This document shows positions 2,195-10,096 of a stretch of DNA of 64,000 bases, piece after piece. The stretch's first letter is position 1. Each line of letters opens with the position of its first letter. Origin of the DNA: Brachyspira innocens ATCC 29796. GTDB lineage: Bacteria; Spirochaetota; Brachyspiria; Brachyspirales; Brachyspiraceae. Made by a program: the position numbers and the translations under genes. The notes under the pieces were generated by a model. It was not told where the DNA came from. It did not search any database and worked only from the letters and a program-made list of their open reading frames with translations. The stretch spans positions 23,694 through 87,693 of the forward strand of contig NZ_ARQI01000124.1 in assembly GCF_000384655.1 (NCBI RefSeq). The letters are read 5' to 3'.

Positions 2195-3370
2195 CTAAGA
2201 TATAAATCCGCCTTTTCTCAAAATATTCTCTGCATTTTCTTTGTTCTTATCACTCACTAATATGATAGGTCCAGTACAGCCCATACCAGACTCAGCATAT
2301 ATACCATTTTCCATAACCAAATCAACAGCTGCATCCAAATCCATAACTTCAACACCAGGGATTTGTGCAGTTACAACTTCTTTGGCTACAGAAGGTTTTG
2401 CTTTTTCTCCGCCTGAAGAAGCATTTGCTTTAGGTTTTAAACTATCTAAAATAGCATCAAAACCATATTTTTTTACTTCTTCTTCTTCTTTGTTCATAAC
2501 ATCTATTAAATTACCGCTTATACATTGATAAGCATATTCAATAGCACCAGCAATAACATTAGAACCAGAAGCTCTTGAAATAATGAATATAGGTGTTTTA
2601 AATCCGAATCCTATACCAGGACCATAACCATATCCTATAGCCTCATAGCTTCCGCCGCTGTTGAATGAGGAGAACATTTTTATAAGTATGTTTCCAGTAA
2701 GAGAGTCGCATACAACAACATCAACAGCACCAGTTATAAGGTCATTTCCTCTCAAAACGGCACCGCCATCAGCACGGTTAGAAGCTCCGAATTTAATATT
2801 ATAACCGTTAGAAGCTAATTCTTTTAAAGCTCTCTCTACAGTACGTGCAGAATCAATATTTAATATACCAACTGTTGGTTCTTTAATACCGCAGACTTTT
2901 GCTGTTATTATTCCGTAAATAGCATTTTTAAACATAGCCTGATCTCTGACAGTAGCAGAAGTACCTGTAGTAGTAGCTATATATGTTTCTTTTCCATTAG
3001 CCTGAGATATAACTCTTCCTACAGTAGATACTCCTATAGGGAAAGGATAATGCATAGTAACACAAGCATCCAATTCTCCTTTAGAGAGCATTTCTTCCAT
3101 TATTTTATGAGCTTTCTCATCGCAGTCAGTTTCTATTGTTTGTAATCCTGTAGAGTTTTTCTCACCAATTAAAACAACTTCAACATTTTTGTTTCTGCTC
3201 ATAGCTATTACACCGCCAAGAGATACTGCCTCTGCACCATGCTCAGAACCTCTATTTGTAATACCAACACGTACTTTTTTTCCGAATTGACCTGTTTCTA
3301 AAGCATTAGCAAGTGAAAGGAAAGTTTCACCTATCATAGATTTTATAGCTGAATTAGAAGCATCACTCAT
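2195..3370 (-). CDS. grdD: Glycine/sarcosine/betaine reductase complex, component C subunit alpha (GrdD)
   Basis: GrdD is the smaller subunit of protein C, which takes the selenium-bound carboxymethyl/acetyl unit and releases acetyl phosphate, the ATP-yielding step of Stickland glycine reduction. The 391 residues include DACVTMHYPFPIG (Cys103) and, near the end, SGMGCTGPIILV (Cys365). These appear to correspond to the two conserved cysteines of the family. AAGGAGG precedes the ATG, which lies 11 bases after the grdC stop, so the two subunits are probably translationally linked. It is the last gene before the terminator at 2081-2128. Confidence 0.95.
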   Translation of the reverse strand: MSDASNSAIKSMIGETFLSLANALETGQFGKKVRVGITNRGSEHGAEAVSLGGVIAMSRNKNVEVVLIGEKNSTGLQTIETDCDEKAHKIMEEMLSKGELDACVTMHYPFPIGVSTVGRVISQANGKETYIATTTGTSATVRDQAMFKNAIYGIITAKVCGIKEPTVGILNIDSARTVERALKELASNGYNIKFGASNRADGGAVLRGNDLITGAVDVVVCDSLTGNILIKMFSSFNSGGSYEAIGYGYGPGIGFGFKTPIFIISRASGSNVIAGAIEYAYQCISGNLIDVMNKEEEEVKKYGFDAILDSLKPKANASSGGEKAKPSVAKEVVTAQIPGVEVMDLDAAVDLVMENGIYAESGMGCTGPIILVSDKNKENAENILRKGGFIS

Positions 3371-3381
3371 CTAATACCTCC

Positions 3382-4968
3382 TTACTCGCCTAACATGCTT
3401 TTAGCGAAATCTCTCATAGCATTAGCAATAAGTTTATTAACTTCTTCTTTTGAAACACCTTCGCTTGTACCTTTATCACCGCTGTTTTTTTCGATAATAA
3501 CAGATATACCGTCAAAAAGATTAGTCATTCTTCCTAAGAATAATGAACCTTTACCTATAAGCATTACACGATTAATTTTACCAGACATAATGTCCTCAAT
3601 AGCATAACCCAAATAAGGTACTCCAGATGGTATATGACCTTGAGTTGGAGCCCAACCAGACATACCATGTTTATCAACAAATTCAGCTATTTGACTTCTT
3701 TCTAGGTCTCCTTTTTTTACACCGATGGCAGCTATCATTTTATAATTAGCTTCTGGAACATCACCAGCACCAGCAGGTTTAGTTACATCAGGGTTTTGCA
3801 TTTCTACAGTATATTTATCTATATCTGTAACTTTTAAGTTTGCTTTTTCCAAAGGATTTACTATCAAAGATGTCATAACTGCCTGAGGAGCAGAACCAGT
3901 AGCAACGGTGTGTCTTCCAAGTACATCTGTTCTTATAACAGGGTGTACTCCGTCATTCTCACTGATAAGTACAGCAAAAGCACCTAATATATCTTCGATA
4001 ATAGGAAGATTTTTAGTTACATGGCTTTTACCATTCATACCCAATTTAGCAGTAGCACCTCCTGCAACTATTACTACATTTTTATAAGAACCAGCTTTTA
4101 CTAAAGAAGCAGCAGTTACTAAAGCATGTGAAGGAGCGGCACAGAATCCTCTAATATCAAAACCTGTAGTGTTAGGTATTCCAGCAACTTCAGCTATACT
4201 TTTAGCGAAGTTACCGCCACCTCTTTGGTTCATATCACCGCAAGCCTCTTCAGAACATTCAATAACCAAATCGATTGTTTTAGGATCAATATTTTTCTTT
4301 CTAATAAGTTCTTTTAAAGCCATAATACCAGAAGCTTTAACTGCTAAGTTTTCAAAGATAACATGTGCACTCAAGTTAATATCAACATCATGTGCTCTTT
4401 TTATACAGCCTACTAATTTTTCATTGAAATATAAACCTTCAGCATGTTCTTCTTTTATTAATCTTTCTATTTCATCGATTTTAGTTTCGCATTTTACCTG
4501 AGCTAAATCTTTTTTAATTTCATCTTCTGTTTTATATTTAGATTCTGAAGCAATATAAGCATCTCTCATTTTTTTCTCAAATTCAGCTTCTAAATATACT
4601 AATTCAAATACATCAGATATTTTCATCATAAAGATAAATTCATCTTCAGCGAAAATTTCACCGAATTTACCGTTTCTTTCACCTTTACAAGGCACACCTA
4701 TCCAGCTTCCTCCTGCTTTTTTTACTTCTTCAGAAACTTGAGATGCAAGTTTTTTTAATTCTTCAGGGTGAAGATTACCAATATAAGTTTGGTTAGGGGC
4801 ATAATTTACAACATCTTCAAAAGGTCTAAGATGTTCTTTAAGTTTTTTTAAATAGTCCGAATCAGGATTAACTTCTCTTTCTACTGTTTGCGTAGTACCG
4901 TTATTGACTACCATATCAGGTGCATGTACTATAGCATAAGCAGCAGCTTTTAATACAGCATAACTCAT
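3382..4968 (-). CDS. grdC: Glycine/sarcosine/betaine reductase complex, component C subunit beta (GrdC)
   Basis: GrdC is the larger subunit of protein C and has a ketoacyl-synthase/FabH-like (thiolase-type) fold. With GrdD it forms the acetyl-enzyme that is phosphorolysed to acetyl phosphate. Motifs include SEEACGDMNQRGGGNFAKS and DIRGFCAAPSHALVTAASL. The frame is open from 4983, but GGAG sits 9 bases before the ATG at 4968 (M-S-Y-A-V-L-K), whereas the upstream ATG has no ribosome site, so I use 4968 (528 residues). A 148-base spacer holding a strong hairpin separates it from grdB. Confidence 0.95.
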   Translation of the reverse strand: MSYAVLKAAAYAIVHAPDMVVNNGTTQTVEREVNPDSDYLKKLKEHLRPFEDVVNYAPNQTYIGNLHPEELKKLASQVSEEVKKAGGSWIGVPCKGERNGKFGEIFAEDEFIFMMKISDVFELVYLEAEFEKKMRDAYIASESKYKTEDEIKKDLAQVKCETKIDEIERLIKEEHAEGLYFNEKLVGCIKRAHDVDINLSAHVIFENLAVKASGIMALKELIRKKNIDPKTIDLVIECSEEACGDMNQRGGGNFAKSIAEVAGIPNTTGFDIRGFCAAPSHALVTAASLVKAGSYKNVVIVAGGATAKLGMNGKSHVTKNLPIIEDILGAFAVLISENDGVHPVIRTDVLGRHTVATGSAPQAVMTSLIVNPLEKANLKVTDIDKYTVEMQNPDVTKPAGAGDVPEANYKMIAAIGVKKGDLERSQIAEFVDKHGMSGWAPTQGHIPSGVPYLGYAIEDIMSGKINRVMLIGKGSLFLGRMTNLFDGISVIIEKNSGDKGTSEGVSKEEVNKLIANAMRDFAKSMLGE

Positions 4969-5006
4969 CTTTTTAATCTCCAATGTTTATTTTTTATTTA
5001 ATAATG

Positions 5007-5116: not shown

Positions 5117-6415
5117 TTAATCTTCAAAAACTGTTTGTGTATCTACAGGAGTTGTCAAAGCTTTTAATGCTCTTTCAACTAATGTACGTCTTAATTTTTT
5201 CTCATCTTCTTTAGACAAATTAGGATTGCCTAGAGGGTGAGGTATAGCAACTGCTGGAACTATTCTGTTAGCACCAACTGTTAAAGATATAGGAACAATA
5301 GTACAAATATGGACTACAGGTATTCCAGTAGCTTCTATTGCTTTAACCATCGTTGCACCGCAACGAGTACAAGTTCCTCAGGTTGATGTTAATATAACAG
5401 CCTGAACTCCGTCTTTAACTAAAGTTTGAGCAAATTCAGTAGCAAATGCTTTAGAACTTTTTACTGAAGTACCATTACCAGTAGTAGTATAGTAATAAGG
5501 ATAAAGCTCTCCTATTTTACCTTCTTTCTGTAAATCTTTTAATACATCAACAGGTAATACTCTGTTAGGGTCTTGGTTAGCATAAGTAGGGTCATAACCG
5601 CCATGTGCTGTTTCTCCCATATCATCTATAGAGTATCTTCCATATTTAGAAGCTGAAGAAGATTCTATATGGTCTGGGTTTCCTGATGGTACTATACCGC
5701 CGCTTGTAACCAATGCTATTTTAGCTTTAGTGATATCTTTAATAGCTTCACCTGGTGTTACTCTATCAAAGTCTGGCATTGGATATTCTGTAGTAAATGC
5801 TTCACCTTTAATTTTTTGTATAAGCATATCAACAGCTCTTTCAGCACCGCTTTTTTCTCTGAATAATACTTTACGTATTCCTCTTGGTATATAGCCTTCA
5901 GCATCTGGAGTTCCCAATTCTTCTTTTTTAAGAAGTTTAGAAGCTAATTTAGCTATAACTGGCAAAGCAGCTCTCATACCTGCAGCAGAATCTTTAGTAG
6001 AAACGATATAAACATCTTTCTTAAACATATCTGCACCAGGGTTTTCAATATACATACCAGTAACAGCTGGAATTTTTAATTCATCTTGTATCATTTTAGC
6101 AACAGTACCGCAAGCTGTACCGTAACGTCCTGCATTAAAAGCAGGTCCTGCTATAACTAAATCTGGGCTGAAGCTTTTTATCATTTCTAAAACTTCTGCT
6201 TTAGCTTTATCTAGGTTTTCATTGAAATAAGAGTCACCGCATATAACAGTGCCTACTATTTGTGCATCAATACCTAGCTTCTTAAACTCGCCTTGTAATC
6301 CTGCACCAGGACCTACAACTCCGTCTCTTTTCTCTGGAGCTATATCAGCCTTTTCCTCTCCGCCGATATTAGCGAAGAACTGATTAATATAATGAACTAT
6401 TTTATATTCTGGCAT
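5117..6415 (-). CDS. grdB: Glycine reductase component B gamma subunit, selenoprotein GrdB
   Basis: GrdB is the selenoprotein subunit of glycine-specific protein B, which binds glycine as a Schiff base on GrdE and passes a carboxymethyl group to the selenocysteine of GrdA. The frame is 432 residues when the TGA at 5378-5380 is read as selenocysteine (residue 346). The context is ILTST-Sec-GTCTRCGATMVKAIE, the family's Sec-x-x-C-x-x-C region. Without recoding it would break into two fragments. A SECIS hairpin lies just downstream. AGGAGG precedes the ATG. It sits between grdA and grdC. Confidence 0.97.
5351..5380 (-). promoter_or_regulatory. grdB selenocysteine UGA codon and SECIS hairpin
   Basis: On the minus strand the in-frame UGA (5380-5378) is followed by 14 bases and then UUGC-GGU-GCAA (5363-5353). 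With its flanks this makes a perfect 6-bp stem CGUUGC/GCAACG around a GGU loop. The GGU lies at +19 to +21 after the UGA. From memory of the E. coli fdhF SECIS, the SelB-contacted GGU loop sits at the same offset. This hairpin supports decoding of the UGA as selenocysteine. Confidence 0.9.
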
Positions 6416-6566: not shown

Positions 6567-7043
6567 TTATAAATATTTGCAGTTTTCATCACGCATTTTT
6601 TTAATTTCTGCGATGATTTCATCTACGTTTAATGTCATTTCTGCCATACCAATCTGTTCATCATAAACAGCAGGATCTACTGCTTCTTTGAATTCTGGTT
6701 CTACGGCATGGTAAGCTGCTAAGCCTAATTCTACTCCAGCTAAAGCACCAGCATAAGTAGGGTCTCCTATCATTACTGTTTCAGCTGCTAAACCTGTAGC
6801 TTCTGCTTCTGCAGCACCGAATAATACTACTATATTTTCTCCTCCAAATTTTTCTGTAAATTCTTTAATTCTCTTTTGATTCTCTAAATCCATCGCTCCT
6901 GCGGCTGTTCAAACAAAACACTCCGTAGCAGCAAACAAAACTTCTGCGTCTTGTACTGTTTCAACGCATGCTTTGATAGCTTCTCCAGGAATGCCGTCTC
7001 TATCGCCAATGATAATTACTTTTTTACCATTTAAAATACTCAT
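6567..7043 (-). CDS. grdA: Glycine reductase complex selenoprotein A (GrdA)
   Basis: GrdA is the small acidic carrier selenoprotein of glycine reductase. Its selenolate takes the carboxymethyl group from protein B and hands it to protein C, and it is re-reduced by the thioredoxin system. Read from the ATG at 7043 through the TGA at 6909-6911 the product is 158 residues, the usual family length. Selenocysteine is residue 45 in CFV-Sec-TAAGAMD, the redox-active Cys-x-x-Sec. AGGAGG precedes the start. Short stems are possible after the UGA (for example CGC-AGGA-GCG), but the SECIS is less obvious than in grdB. Confidence 0.96.
6909..6911 (-). other. In-frame selenocysteine codon of grdA
   Basis: TGA in the context C-F-V-(TGA)-T-A-A-G-A-M-D. 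The flanking residues match the conserved GrdA active site, and both sides of the stop are in the same frame. Confidence 0.93.
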
Positions 7044-7096: not shown

Positions 7097-8383
7097 TTAT
7101 AGTCCTGTAGCACTAAATTTATTAAAACCTAATTCGTTTGTAGCACCAGTTATAACCTGCAATTCTGCTTCAATAGAACCATCTGGTTTTAATGATCCGT
7201 CAAATCCGCCTGCTATTTTATCTGTATAATCTAACATACCTATTACTTTATCCATTTTTGGTAAATTAATAACTACATTAGCATTACCTGCTGTTACTAC
7301 TGCATTTGCTGATACATCAGAATCTGCCAAAGACTGTGAAGCTCCGTCTCTTCCAGCATACTCATCTGTTATGATACAAGTTTTTATGCCGAATGCTTCT
7401 GCTTTTTTACAGTTCATTATTAAATCTGCATCTGGATTACCGAATCCTTCTTCAGAGATAATTACCGCATCTAATCCGAAGTATTTAGCTAATTTTGATG
7501 ACCAATCTGATGAACGCATTTTATCTGCTAAAAATACATTTTCATTTGTTATTATAACACCCATAAAGTTAATATCTTTACCATGTTTTTCATATAAAGC
7601 TTTAATTACTGGGTTATTCAAGTGGTGATAAGTTGTATTTTTATCACAAGCTGATACACAGTTACCGCTTACTATAGCACCGTCCATTACTTCTGTTGGA
7701 TAAATAAATGTAGGAACTATTTTTTTAGCGTCTACACCATAAACATAAGTATCATGTAATAAACCTTGAGTTTGAAGCATATATATATAGCCAACTTTTG
7801 GTAAATTAGGATACATTGCAGCTTGTTCAAATATAGGTTTAGTTTCATAGCTGTAAGTATTATCTGGTTTTAAATCTTTAGCTAATTTTCCCAAATAAGA
7901 TGCTACTCTTAAACCTGCTCCTCTTACTGCTGCTTCATAATCATGTTTTTCTATAGGCTCTATTGGCTCTATAAGCAAACATAAATTATTAAGTTTAGAG
8001 AATGGAGTATAATCAGCTCCAGGTCCTGTCATATCTATAATACCTTCTTGGAAACCTACTATTTTACCGCAAGTAACAACAGCTGCACCTTTTAAAACAT
8101 GAGTTTTACCTTCTCCAACTGTATCTACTTTAGATATCATACCTGGAAATATACCGCCTCTGCCGTCAACTTTTACTCTAGGTTCAATTACATCTTTTAC
8201 TGGAGTAATACGTACTGATTCTCCAGGACGAGCTACATCAATTTTTACGCTTTTTAACTTATCGTCCTCAAGCACAATTTTTGTAACTTCTTCCTCATTT
8301 ACATAGAGTACTCCGTTCTCGACTTTTGAAATTTTGTCAAGCTTTATATCTTTAATATAAATCTCGCCTATCTCTAACTTCAT
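7097..8383 (-). CDS. grdE: Glycine reductase component B alpha/beta precursor (GrdE)
   Basis: GrdE is the proprotein of protein B. It is cleaved into two chains and gains an N-terminal pyruvoyl (carbonyl) group that binds glycine as a Schiff base. The 428-residue product carries the cleavage region SGNCVSACDKNTTYHH, with the cleaved pair at Asn241-Cys242, the spacing known for the family. AAAGGAG lies just before the ATG. It is the first full-size gene of the grdEABCD transcript and follows the unusual leader at 8427-8627. The maturation step is known from the clostridial homologue, not seen here. Confidence 0.95.
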   Translation of the reverse strand: MKLEIGEIYIKDIKLDKISKVENGVLYVNEEEVTKIVLEDDKLKSVKIDVARPGESVRITPVKDVIEPRVKVDGRGGIFPGMISKVDTVGEGKTHVLKGAAVVTCGKIVGFQEGIIDMTGPGADYTPFSKLNNLCLLIEPIEPIEKHDYEAAVRGAGLRVASYLGKLAKDLKPDNTYSYETKPIFEQAAMYPNLPKVGYIYMLQTQGLLHDTYVYGVDAKKIVPTFIYPTEVMDGAIVSGNCVSACDKNTTYHHLNNPVIKALYEKHGKDINFMGVIITNENVFLADKMRSSDWSSKLAKYFGLDAVIISEEGFGNPDADLIMNCKKAEAFGIKTCIITDEYAGRDGASQSLADSDVSANAVVTAGNANVVINLPKMDKVIGMLDYTDKIAGGFDGSLKPDGSIEAELQVITGATNELGFNKFSATGL

Positions 8384-8426
8384 ATAGTCTCCTTTATATT
8401 TTTTATTTTTATATAATTTATATAAA

Positions 8427-8627
8427 TTAAATTATATCAACAAAAAAGAGCAGAAACATATTTTTAAAATATATTCCGCTCTTAAAATTACACAATAACT
8501 GATATACATGAATTTTAATCCCTGAGAAATTTAATGTTCGCAAATTATGTAATTCTGAAATAGAATTATAAAATACATTACTCATTGCACCGCAAGATAA
8601 ATTATTTACTCAGCTATTAAATTTCAT
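8427..8627 (-). CDS. Candidate selenocysteine-containing leader peptide upstream of grdE
   Basis: A 66-codon frame starts at ATG 8627 (AGGA at 8640-8637, 9 bases upstream; a second in-frame ATG is at 8633). It reads M-K-F-N-S, then an in-frame TGA (8610-8612), then 60 open codons to TAA at 8427-8429. A hairpin identical in core sequence and distance to the grdB SECIS follows the TGA. The 3' part of the frame runs through the intrinsic terminator at 8442-8483. After the TGA the peptide continues VNNLSCGAMSNVFYNS and resembles no protein I recognise; the Cys-Gly-Ala it shares with GrdB is simply what the hairpin encodes. It may be a regulatory leader rather than a functional selenoprotein. A stand-alone small selenoprotein is the main alternative. 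Confidence 0.6.
8442..8483 (-). terminator. Intrinsic terminator inside the grdE leader
   Basis: On the minus strand AAGAGC pairs with GCUCUU, with further GAA/UUC pairing above a mismatch, followed directly by UUUUUUG. It lies between the leader promoter and grdE and inside the read-through frame of the leader ORF, so a ribosome that passed the UGA would cover it. Confidence 0.85.
8583..8612 (-). promoter_or_regulatory. SECIS-like hairpin in the grdE leader
   Basis: The layout is UGA (8612-8610), N14, then UUGCGGUGCAA (8595-8585). The 11-base core and the 14-base spacing are identical to grdB, while the intervening 14 bases are mostly different, so this is not simply copied DNA. The four-pair stem can be lengthened by two pairs past one bulged U. 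Confidence 0.75.
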
Positions 8628-8667
8628 TAACATATATCCTTTTTAATATTTTTATTTACACTATATA

Positions 8668-8695
8668 AATATAACAATTTTTTTATTATTGTCAA
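8668..8695 (-). promoter_or_regulatory. Promoter of the grdE leader/operon
   Basis: TTGACA (8695-8690), a 16-base spacer, and TATATT (8673-8668) preceded by TGT (extended -10) on the minus strand. The predicted start is near 8661, about 35 bases before the leader ORF. It gives grdEABCD a promoter separate from that of grdX-trxB. Confidence 0.75.
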
Positions 8696-8717
8696 CATTT
8701 TTTAATTATTTTTTTAT

Positions 8718-9700: not shown

Positions 9701-10096
9701 CTATAAAATACTTTCTATAGCTCCCGAAACAAGTTTGTAATCTATTAACTTAAAATCCTCATCTATGGTTTCAGTAAGTTTTCTTCTAGGCTTATCCAAA
9801 AAATTCATAGTTAATGCTATAGAATTTTCTATCAATTCTAATGACTCCAAATCAAGTTCGCCGTTATTATTAGAAAGTGCTATACTTTTATACGGAGTCT
9901 CATAAGGCTTTATACTGCTCACTATTGGGTGAGTTAAAAGCTTATAGCATAAATGTATATAATCTCTAGCCTTATAAAGTATACCCATAAAATCCAAATC
10001 TGGCAAATAGATTATCTGTATATTATTACTATTTACCTCATTAAATTTAGGATTATTTGTTATCAAAATATTTTTTTTATTGATATTCACGTCCAT
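9701..10096 (-). CDS. grdX: GrdX family protein
   Basis: A 131-residue protein matching the GrdX family that precedes trxB in glycine reductase operons; its biochemical role is not established. Recognisable features are the N-terminal ILITNNPKF and the central LLTHPIVSSIKPYETPYKS. No Shine-Dalgarno sequence is visible before the ATG, and the best promoter puts the transcription start only about 5 bases upstream, so the message may be nearly leaderless. It is co-transcribed with trxB (23-base gap). Confidence 0.8.
   Translation of the reverse strand: MDVNINKKNILITNNPKFNEVNSNNIQIIYLPDLDFMGILYKARDYIHLCYKLLTHPIVSSIKPYETPYKSIALSNNNGELDLESLELIENSIALTMNFLDKPRRKLTETIDEDFKLIDYKLVSGAIESIL

Follow-up and report, generated by a model that had tools for sequence, protein, structure and literature searches.

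To our knowledge, how bacteria match the transcription of selenoprotein genes to the supply of selenocysteine is a largely open question. It is posed in concrete form by the glycine reductase (grd) operon of Brachyspira innocens ATCC 29796, contained in the 64,000-nucleotide stretch of DNA analysed here (the window). Between a trxB-like gene and grdE there is a short reading frame that contains an in-frame UGA; a SECIS-like hairpin comes just beyond the UGA, and a predicted intrinsic terminator is placed inside the frame itself. An earlier note, made from the sequence alone, had read this arrangement as an attenuator. Our analysis of relatives leads us to a similar view: the Brachyspira grdE leader likely controls transcription by attenuation, sensing whether the cell can insert selenocysteine.

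The operon and its leader

All genes considered here lie on the minus strand. The first gene past the leader is grdE (8383–7097), followed by the two selenoprotein genes of the operon, grdA (6567–7043, UGA 6911–6909; NF040748 above its cut-off) and grdB (5117–6415, UGA 5380–5378; TIGR01918 above its cut-off), the latter with an Rfam SECIS_4 match at 5377–5340. Beyond these are the genes of reductase component C (2195–4983), beta at 4983–3382 and alpha at 3370–2195 (NF040746 and NF040747, both above their cut-offs). Upstream of the leader are the trxB-like gene (9677–8718), whose TIGR01292 score of 338.4 falls just below the cut-off of 343.45 bits, and grdX (9701–10096; NF038093 above its cut-off). 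For grdE and trxB the family matches stay below cut-off, and the assignment also draws on the gene order in PMC2897892. According to the accessible part of that paper, which makes no mention of a leader before grdE, B. pilosicoli and B. murdochii have the grd operon and B. hyodysenteriae lacks it; the accessible part of PMC5330540 describes other, thioredoxin-like selenoproteins of Brachyspira. Selenocysteine machinery is general in the genus: SelB was found above cut-off in all 26 genomes and tRNA-Sec in 25, the exception (G021) being an 86% complete assembly with no GrdE match.

Every element described by the earlier note is where it had been placed. The leader frame (8627–8427) has a Shine-Dalgarno sequence AGGA (8640–8637), an ATG at 8627 (with an alternative in-frame ATG at 8633) and, as codon 6, a UGA (8612–8610) predicted to encode selenocysteine. 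Fourteen nucleotides past this codon is the core TTGCGGTGCAA (8595–8585); the frame stays open for 60 codons after the UGA and ends at a TAA (8429–8427), with 43 bases between that stop and the grdE ATG at 8383.

A promoter-like site, TTGACA-16-TATATT (8695–8668), precedes the leader and matches the consensus at 11 of 12 positions. It is the top-scoring site in the region, yet the 14 promoter-like hits there are close to the shuffled mean of 13.6. Matches of 10 or 11 positions occur before the leader in only four of 12 relatives, and matches of 11 in the window, L004 and L005. In four other loci (L007, L008, L013 and L015) the leader begins 24–38 nt past trxB and the best promoter-like match is at most 8 of 12; being so close behind trxB and lacking a good promoter, the leader would there act inside the operon.

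A SECIS-like hairpin follows the leader UGA

The core forms part of a SECIS-like hairpin, UC-UUGC-GGU-GCAA-u-GA (8597–8582). As the earlier note had pointed out, grdB carries the identical 11-nt core at the identical 14-nt distance from its own UGA (5380–5378). The apical GGU loop starts 18 nt past the leader UGA, the same distance as in E. coli fdhF. The leader hairpin differs from the grdB SECIS (SECIS_4, RF01990) in that it sits within a non-conserved peptide, has another lower stem and has no Rfam match: a search of 8384–8717 returned no hit even at E up to 5. Taken alone it is weak (−3.6 kcal/mol, z +0.91, single-sequence fold against shuffles). It thus shares with bacterial SECIS elements a fixed short distance past an in-frame UGA – 14 nt in all 12 leaders described below – and departs from them in stability and in membership of a described family. 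In a consensus fold of 11 leaders the stem comprises six pairs (UC-UUGC/GCAA-u-GA), one of which shows a compensatory change from C-G to A-U in three sequences.

The sequences past the UGA codons of grdA (6911–6909) and grdB (5380–5378) differ from one another, and only the core of grdB equals that of the leader. Leader and grdB also share the string TGAG; with string and core in common, the leader was perhaps derived from a copy of the grdB site.

The leader is conserved before the primary grdE in 12 of 13 Brachyspira genomes

A GrdE search of the 26 genus genomes gave a match in 14, with a primary grdE (89–100% identity) in 13, and the 450 nt upstream of each of these 13 genes were inspected. 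Twelve have the leader, and thus a short frame with its own ribosome-binding site ahead of the operon. The order of elements is the same in all: AGGA just 5′ of the start codon, the in-frame UGA, the core (UUGCGNYGCAA) after 14 nt, and an open frame that extends into a predicted terminator. The codon is TGA and the distance from it to the core exactly 14 nt in all 12; the core varies solely in its loop (GGU, GUU or GGC), and the frame remains open for 48–61 codons past the UGA. The alignment across Brachyspira that the earlier note had called for is therefore favorable to it, with UGA, spacing and core, open frame and terminator kept at 12 of 13 primary loci. None of the 12 leader-bearing genomes has kept the terminator while losing the UGA, the core or the open frame.

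The thirteenth genome (G019) is without the whole element: trxB ends 35 nt before grdE, there is no UGA core there, and the grdB-type site is present. In the grdE tree G019 and G001 sit at the base, where their branching has low support (65/40). As far as sequence tells, G019 expresses the same operon without a leader, which counts against the attenuator reading. A second observation counts against it too. In L015 (G010:C1, about 1234865–1236216) the grdE frame is fused after approximately residue 375 to the frame of component C beta, and no grdB-type UGA site was found in G010; given the fusion and the missing site, grdA and grdB seem to have been lost by internal deletion. The leader of this locus is nonetheless intact and open.

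At the paralogous grd loci of the genus (L016–L023, with L024 left out) no leader was seen by eye upstream, and there was no match to the UGA-N14-core pattern there. Two of these loci have peculiarities of their own. Upstream of the paralogous grdE-like gene L023 (G015:C8) the pentamer GCATC is repeated many times over, in a run that could vary in length and change expression. The second grdE-like gene of the genome from which the window comes (G000:C124:21279–22489, outside the window; L002 and L003) is split over two overlapping frames, perhaps through a frameshift or an assembly error.

A hairpin of this kind need not act through decoding. In the E. coli selAB 5′ leader a hairpin bound by SelB and Sec-tRNA reportedly acts without any UGA being decoded, and the presence of a SECIS-type core in the 5′ leader of a selenoprotein operon would suit the same arrangement here, with the bound complex acting on transcription or translation directly. 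Such a device would need neither a UGA at 14 nt nor a start codon preceded by AGGA nor an open frame, and all of these are kept in 12 of 12 leaders; we consider it improbable.

A predicted terminator within the reading frame

The predicted intrinsic terminator of the window (8483–8442; hairpin 8483–8446, T tract to 8442) lies within the leader frame. Its hairpin has a predicted stability of −16.4 kcal/mol (z −5.53), equalled by none of 200 shuffles. A simple terminator scan of the region listed no site, probably because the stem has a bulge. A U-tract terminator is predicted in all 12 leaders (−11.2 to −20.6 kcal/mol), the hairpin ending 55–63 nt before grdE, and in the consensus fold of the 11 aligned leaders four of its pairs have changed on both sides.

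The UGA lies 84–141 nt upstream of the hairpin, which itself begins 120–162 nt past the first ATG of the leader. The second stop of the frame falls in the terminator loop or beyond; measured from where the 5′ arm ends, it lies at −2 to +82 nt, so that in all 12 leaders translation past the UGA would reach the end of that arm to within 2 nt. Such an overlap of leader frame and terminator is a feature of pyrBI-type attenuation. The arrangement expected of trp-type attenuation was also sought: no antiterminator competing for the terminator 3′ arm is predicted in any of the 12 leaders, the arm pairing locally at 0.85–1.00 and with the distant leader at 0.00. A trp-type antiterminator was rejected on this ground, and in this respect the resemblance to trp-type attenuation drawn in the earlier note needs correcting.

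Could the leader act mainly by coupling its translation to that of grdE, or by exposing RNA to Rho, the intrinsic terminator being secondary? A ribosome leaving at the UGA would expose more than 100 nt of untranslated RNA, and in one locus (L012, G001:C1) the frame, once read through, extends beyond the terminator until its stop overlaps the start codon of grdE (ATGA), so that readthrough could there also couple translation to grdE. In the other 11 of the 12 leaders the frame ends 26–86 nt before grdE. Moreover, grdE has its own AGGAG ribosome site at all 12 leader-bearing loci, and the U-tract hairpin that this reading treats as secondary is present in every one, with compensatory changes among the 11 aligned. 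We hold this reading to be very improbable, and attenuation at the terminator to be the better account.

Within the genus, the UGA pattern is confined to leaders and grdB-type strings

The 26 genus genomes were searched for UGA-N14-YTGCGNYGCAR. The 31 matches comprise the 12 leaders and 19 grdB-type strings, the latter assigned by their letters; a reversed control gave none, nor is there any in the 12 genomes that lack a GrdE match.

This distribution bears on a further possibility, namely that the UGA is read through by other means than selenocysteine – by a near-cognate tRNA, or when release factor 2 is scarce – and that the leader senses the efficiency of termination. UGA is the leakiest stop codon, and the leader hairpin is weak. 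Against this, the 11-nt core and its 14-nt distance equal those of grdB, and within 26 genomes are met in leaders and grdB-type strings only. There is little prospect that non-selenocysteine readthrough is the correct explanation.

The frame is kept open while the peptide drifts

In the stretch between the UGA and the last base of the terminator 5′ arm, the 12 leaders together contain no stop in the UGA frame, as against 56 and 79 in the other two frames. The earlier note had held the open run of the window to be unlikely by chance. Taken alone it is only mildly so (P about 0.03 for the same stretch, first-order Markov model); with the comparative data the open frame is far more than chance.

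Leader sequences share ancestry, and for this reason neutral evolution was simulated on a tree, using the grdE topology with leader branch lengths and four starting sequences (3,000 runs each). In none of the 12,000 runs did all 12 frames stay open, the mean number of survivors being 1.6–2.7 of 12. Since the whole tree suffers from saturation of its deep branches and from uncertain alignment between groups, the simulation was repeated inside three close groups (11 sequences). Multiplying the largest probabilities then gives 6e-4, one group alone being uninformative (0.31–0.45).

The peptide tells a different story. Over six pairs without shared branches its pN/pS is 1.05 (bootstrap 95% 0.77–1.48), against 0.07 (0.06–0.09) for grdE in the same pairs; individual leader ratios scatter widely, from 0.26 to 5.29 in 15 pairs. 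Of the selection past the UGA for which the earlier note had suggested a test, maintenance of the open frame is thus apparent and constraint on the peptide is not. Because the frame is open while the peptide drifts neutrally, what is kept appears to be translation through the terminator and not a product. It is the pattern to be expected of an attenuator leader, in which translation rather than the peptide is selected, and in this respect the attenuation mechanism put forward in the earlier note gains support; it is not the pattern to be expected of a selenoprotein.

The leader was also considered as a gene for a small selenoprotein with a function of its own, the terminator merely overlapping its end. 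A start codon, a UGA with a SECIS core and an open frame, kept at 12 of 13 loci, are what such a gene would have. The product, however, shows no purifying selection, and the candidate was rejected on its pN/pS of 1.05; the C-terminus lies in the terminator loop in some genomes and 29–60 nt past the hairpin in others, and the peptide of the window has no Pfam match. We give the small selenoprotein hardly any credence. Least credible of all is chance, with a copy of the grdB UGA site having decayed beside an ordinary terminator: derivation from such a copy would suit the shared TGAG and core, but frame, spacing and terminator overlap have survived strong divergence of the intervening sequence.

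A long-range stem may include the start codon and UGA

The consensus fold of the 11 leaders (L012 was omitted as too diverged) recovers, unprompted, the terminator, the SECIS-like stem, a small stem and a long-range stem, here P1, that has no place in the earlier note's account. The small stem (alignment A2, columns 69–73 with 92–96) has unpaired cells. In the window the predicted 5′ strand of P1 (8627–8609) extends from the start codon to just past the UGA; its predicted 3′ strand (8526–8508) contains CTCAGGGATTAAA.

The evidence for P1 is of mixed strength. In single-sequence duplexes the same register is found in eight of 12 leaders, and in these the 3′ segment starts 85–97 nt from the UGA and ends 10–29 nt before the terminator hairpin. 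The duplex prefers another register in L005, L012, L013 and L015. It ranks within 25 of 500 shuffles, and so is significant individually, in only five of the 12, two of these in another register. For a 16-pair version in 11 leaders, 88.6% of cells pair, compared with 30–57% in slid controls, and none of 500 shuffles attained either this paired fraction or the covariation score. Considered separately, the two pairs changed on both sides were reached by 172 of 500 shuffles and the 12 further pair types by 402. Together these folding predictions lend P1 moderate support.

Occurrence outside Brachyspira

Among 392 genomes of the phylum, 14 outside the genus have GrdE, and no such leader was found in the 500 nt before one locus in each. 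An automatic scan of the best 80 of 541 named grdE loci (gap before grdE within 900 nt) detected a UGA frame of this kind in four of five Brachyspira-type loci, all five on contigs already counted among the genus genomes, and in none of the 75 others, four of which have no gap to judge; such a scan would overlook a leader placed at the head of a longer operon. The UGA-N14-core pattern itself has a match in at least 205 of the 392 phylum genomes. Among the matches listed, the seven hits in two other genera of the family (three genomes) are all grdB-type strings, and the remainder look like chance.

A covariance model built from the 11 leaders and run on 296 phylum genomes found one copy in each training genome and one weak hit (E 0.04); L012, which had no part in building it, gave 20.7 bits (E 0.74) at its own leader. 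Plasmid and phage collections contained no leader match. As far as searched, the leader thus appears tied to the grd operon and to Brachyspira. That it was found in one genus only, within the genomes searched, counts against the attenuator reading.

The earlier note knew of no described example of a selenocysteine-sensing leader. We likewise found none in the literature searched, from which most subscription papers were absent; the accessible parts of PMC5330540, PMC2897892, PMC13188914, PMC8659212, PMC4824070, PMC11955535 and PMC5373646 do not describe one.

A model for control of the operon

We propose that translation of the leader begins behind RNA polymerase and that the ribosome reaches the UGA after 5–11 codons. 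With SelB and Sec-tRNA available, selenocysteine would be inserted, and the ribosome would follow the polymerase along the 84–141 nt to the hairpin and cover the 5′ arm of the terminator, permitting transcription of grdEABCD. When selenocysteine is lacking, the ribosome would leave the UGA through the action of release factor 2; the terminator would then be able to fold and stop transcription approximately 60 nt before grdE. The earlier note had the ribosome stop at codon 6 and likened the device to trp-type attenuation; the decision is better described as one between release and recoding at a stop codon, not as stalling. An operon that is on with selenocysteine and off without it suits the presence of two selenoprotein genes.

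For P1 we can offer only guesses. It might form once the ribosome is lost and block re-initiation, making the choice of the pioneer ribosome final; alternatively, it might act as a pause signal for the polymerase, giving the ribosome time to close the gap during slow selenocysteine decoding. On the first of these, the sensor would be the expanded genetic code itself: a single UGA recoding by the pioneer ribosome, locked by a stem that hides start codon and UGA, would decide transcription of the operon. We think this fuller version probable.

The distances are compatible with work on E. coli. According to the accessible part of PMC4824070, repression of an intrinsic terminator is almost complete if translation stops only a few nucleotides away, whereas a stop more than ∼27–30 nt upstream leaves the terminator fully active. 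Since the leader fits these distances, release at the UGA should leave the terminator active, and selenocysteine insertion should bring the ribosome onto it. The same part of that source says that the first ribosome needs roughly 100–200 nt to catch the polymerase, and gives exceptions: a terminator 30 bp past a start codon remained largely efficient, another, placed in a long coding region 38 bp ahead of its stop, was only partly repressed and had 40% efficiency left, and, in general, terminators within a gene's first 100 bp evade repression while those in coding regions can be repressed only in part. Because of such exceptions, coupling over 120–162 nt is plausible rather than assured, and the efficiency of the switch is unpredictable. 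Slow selenocysteine decoding could, moreover, leave the ribosome too far behind the polymerase.

If the model is true, transcription of selenoprotein genes can be controlled in cis with no regulator protein, recoding of a stop codon can serve as a nutrient sensor, attenuation extends to the 21st amino acid, and the leader is a natural selenium-responsive switch. In relatives with the leader close behind trxB and no good promoter between them, trxB would be transcribed while the selenoprotein genes are off.

Relation to known leaders

Three known systems invite comparison. Thanbichler and Boeck reportedly identified a SECIS-like element in the E. coli selAB leader. The Brachyspira leader resembles it in that a SelB-type hairpin would serve as a regulatory element in a 5′ leader. 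It differs in that a UGA which can be decoded precedes the hairpin at the canonical distance, and in its reading frame and predicted terminator.

In attenuation of the trp and his type, the availability of a charged tRNA decides, through a leader peptide, whether an operon is transcribed. The Brachyspira leader would likewise make transcription depend on one charged tRNA by way of a leader peptide. It differs in having no predicted competing antiterminator, in its opposite sign – scarcity would switch the operon off – and in working by release, not stalling. The grd operon, furthermore, uses the amino acid rather than making it.

In pyrBI of E. coli the leader frame runs into an intrinsic terminator, and the supply of nucleotides is sensed through polymerase pausing. 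The likeness here is close: a leader frame extends into the terminator, and a ribosome close behind the polymerase would prevent its folding. What is sensed differs, since the choice in Brachyspira would fall at the UGA, between stop and selenocysteine, and not through pausing. With the frame overlapping the terminator and no antiterminator predicted for the 3′ arm, the anatomy of the leader supports a place nearer to pyrBI-type than to trp-type attenuation, with a recoded stop codon as the putative sensor.
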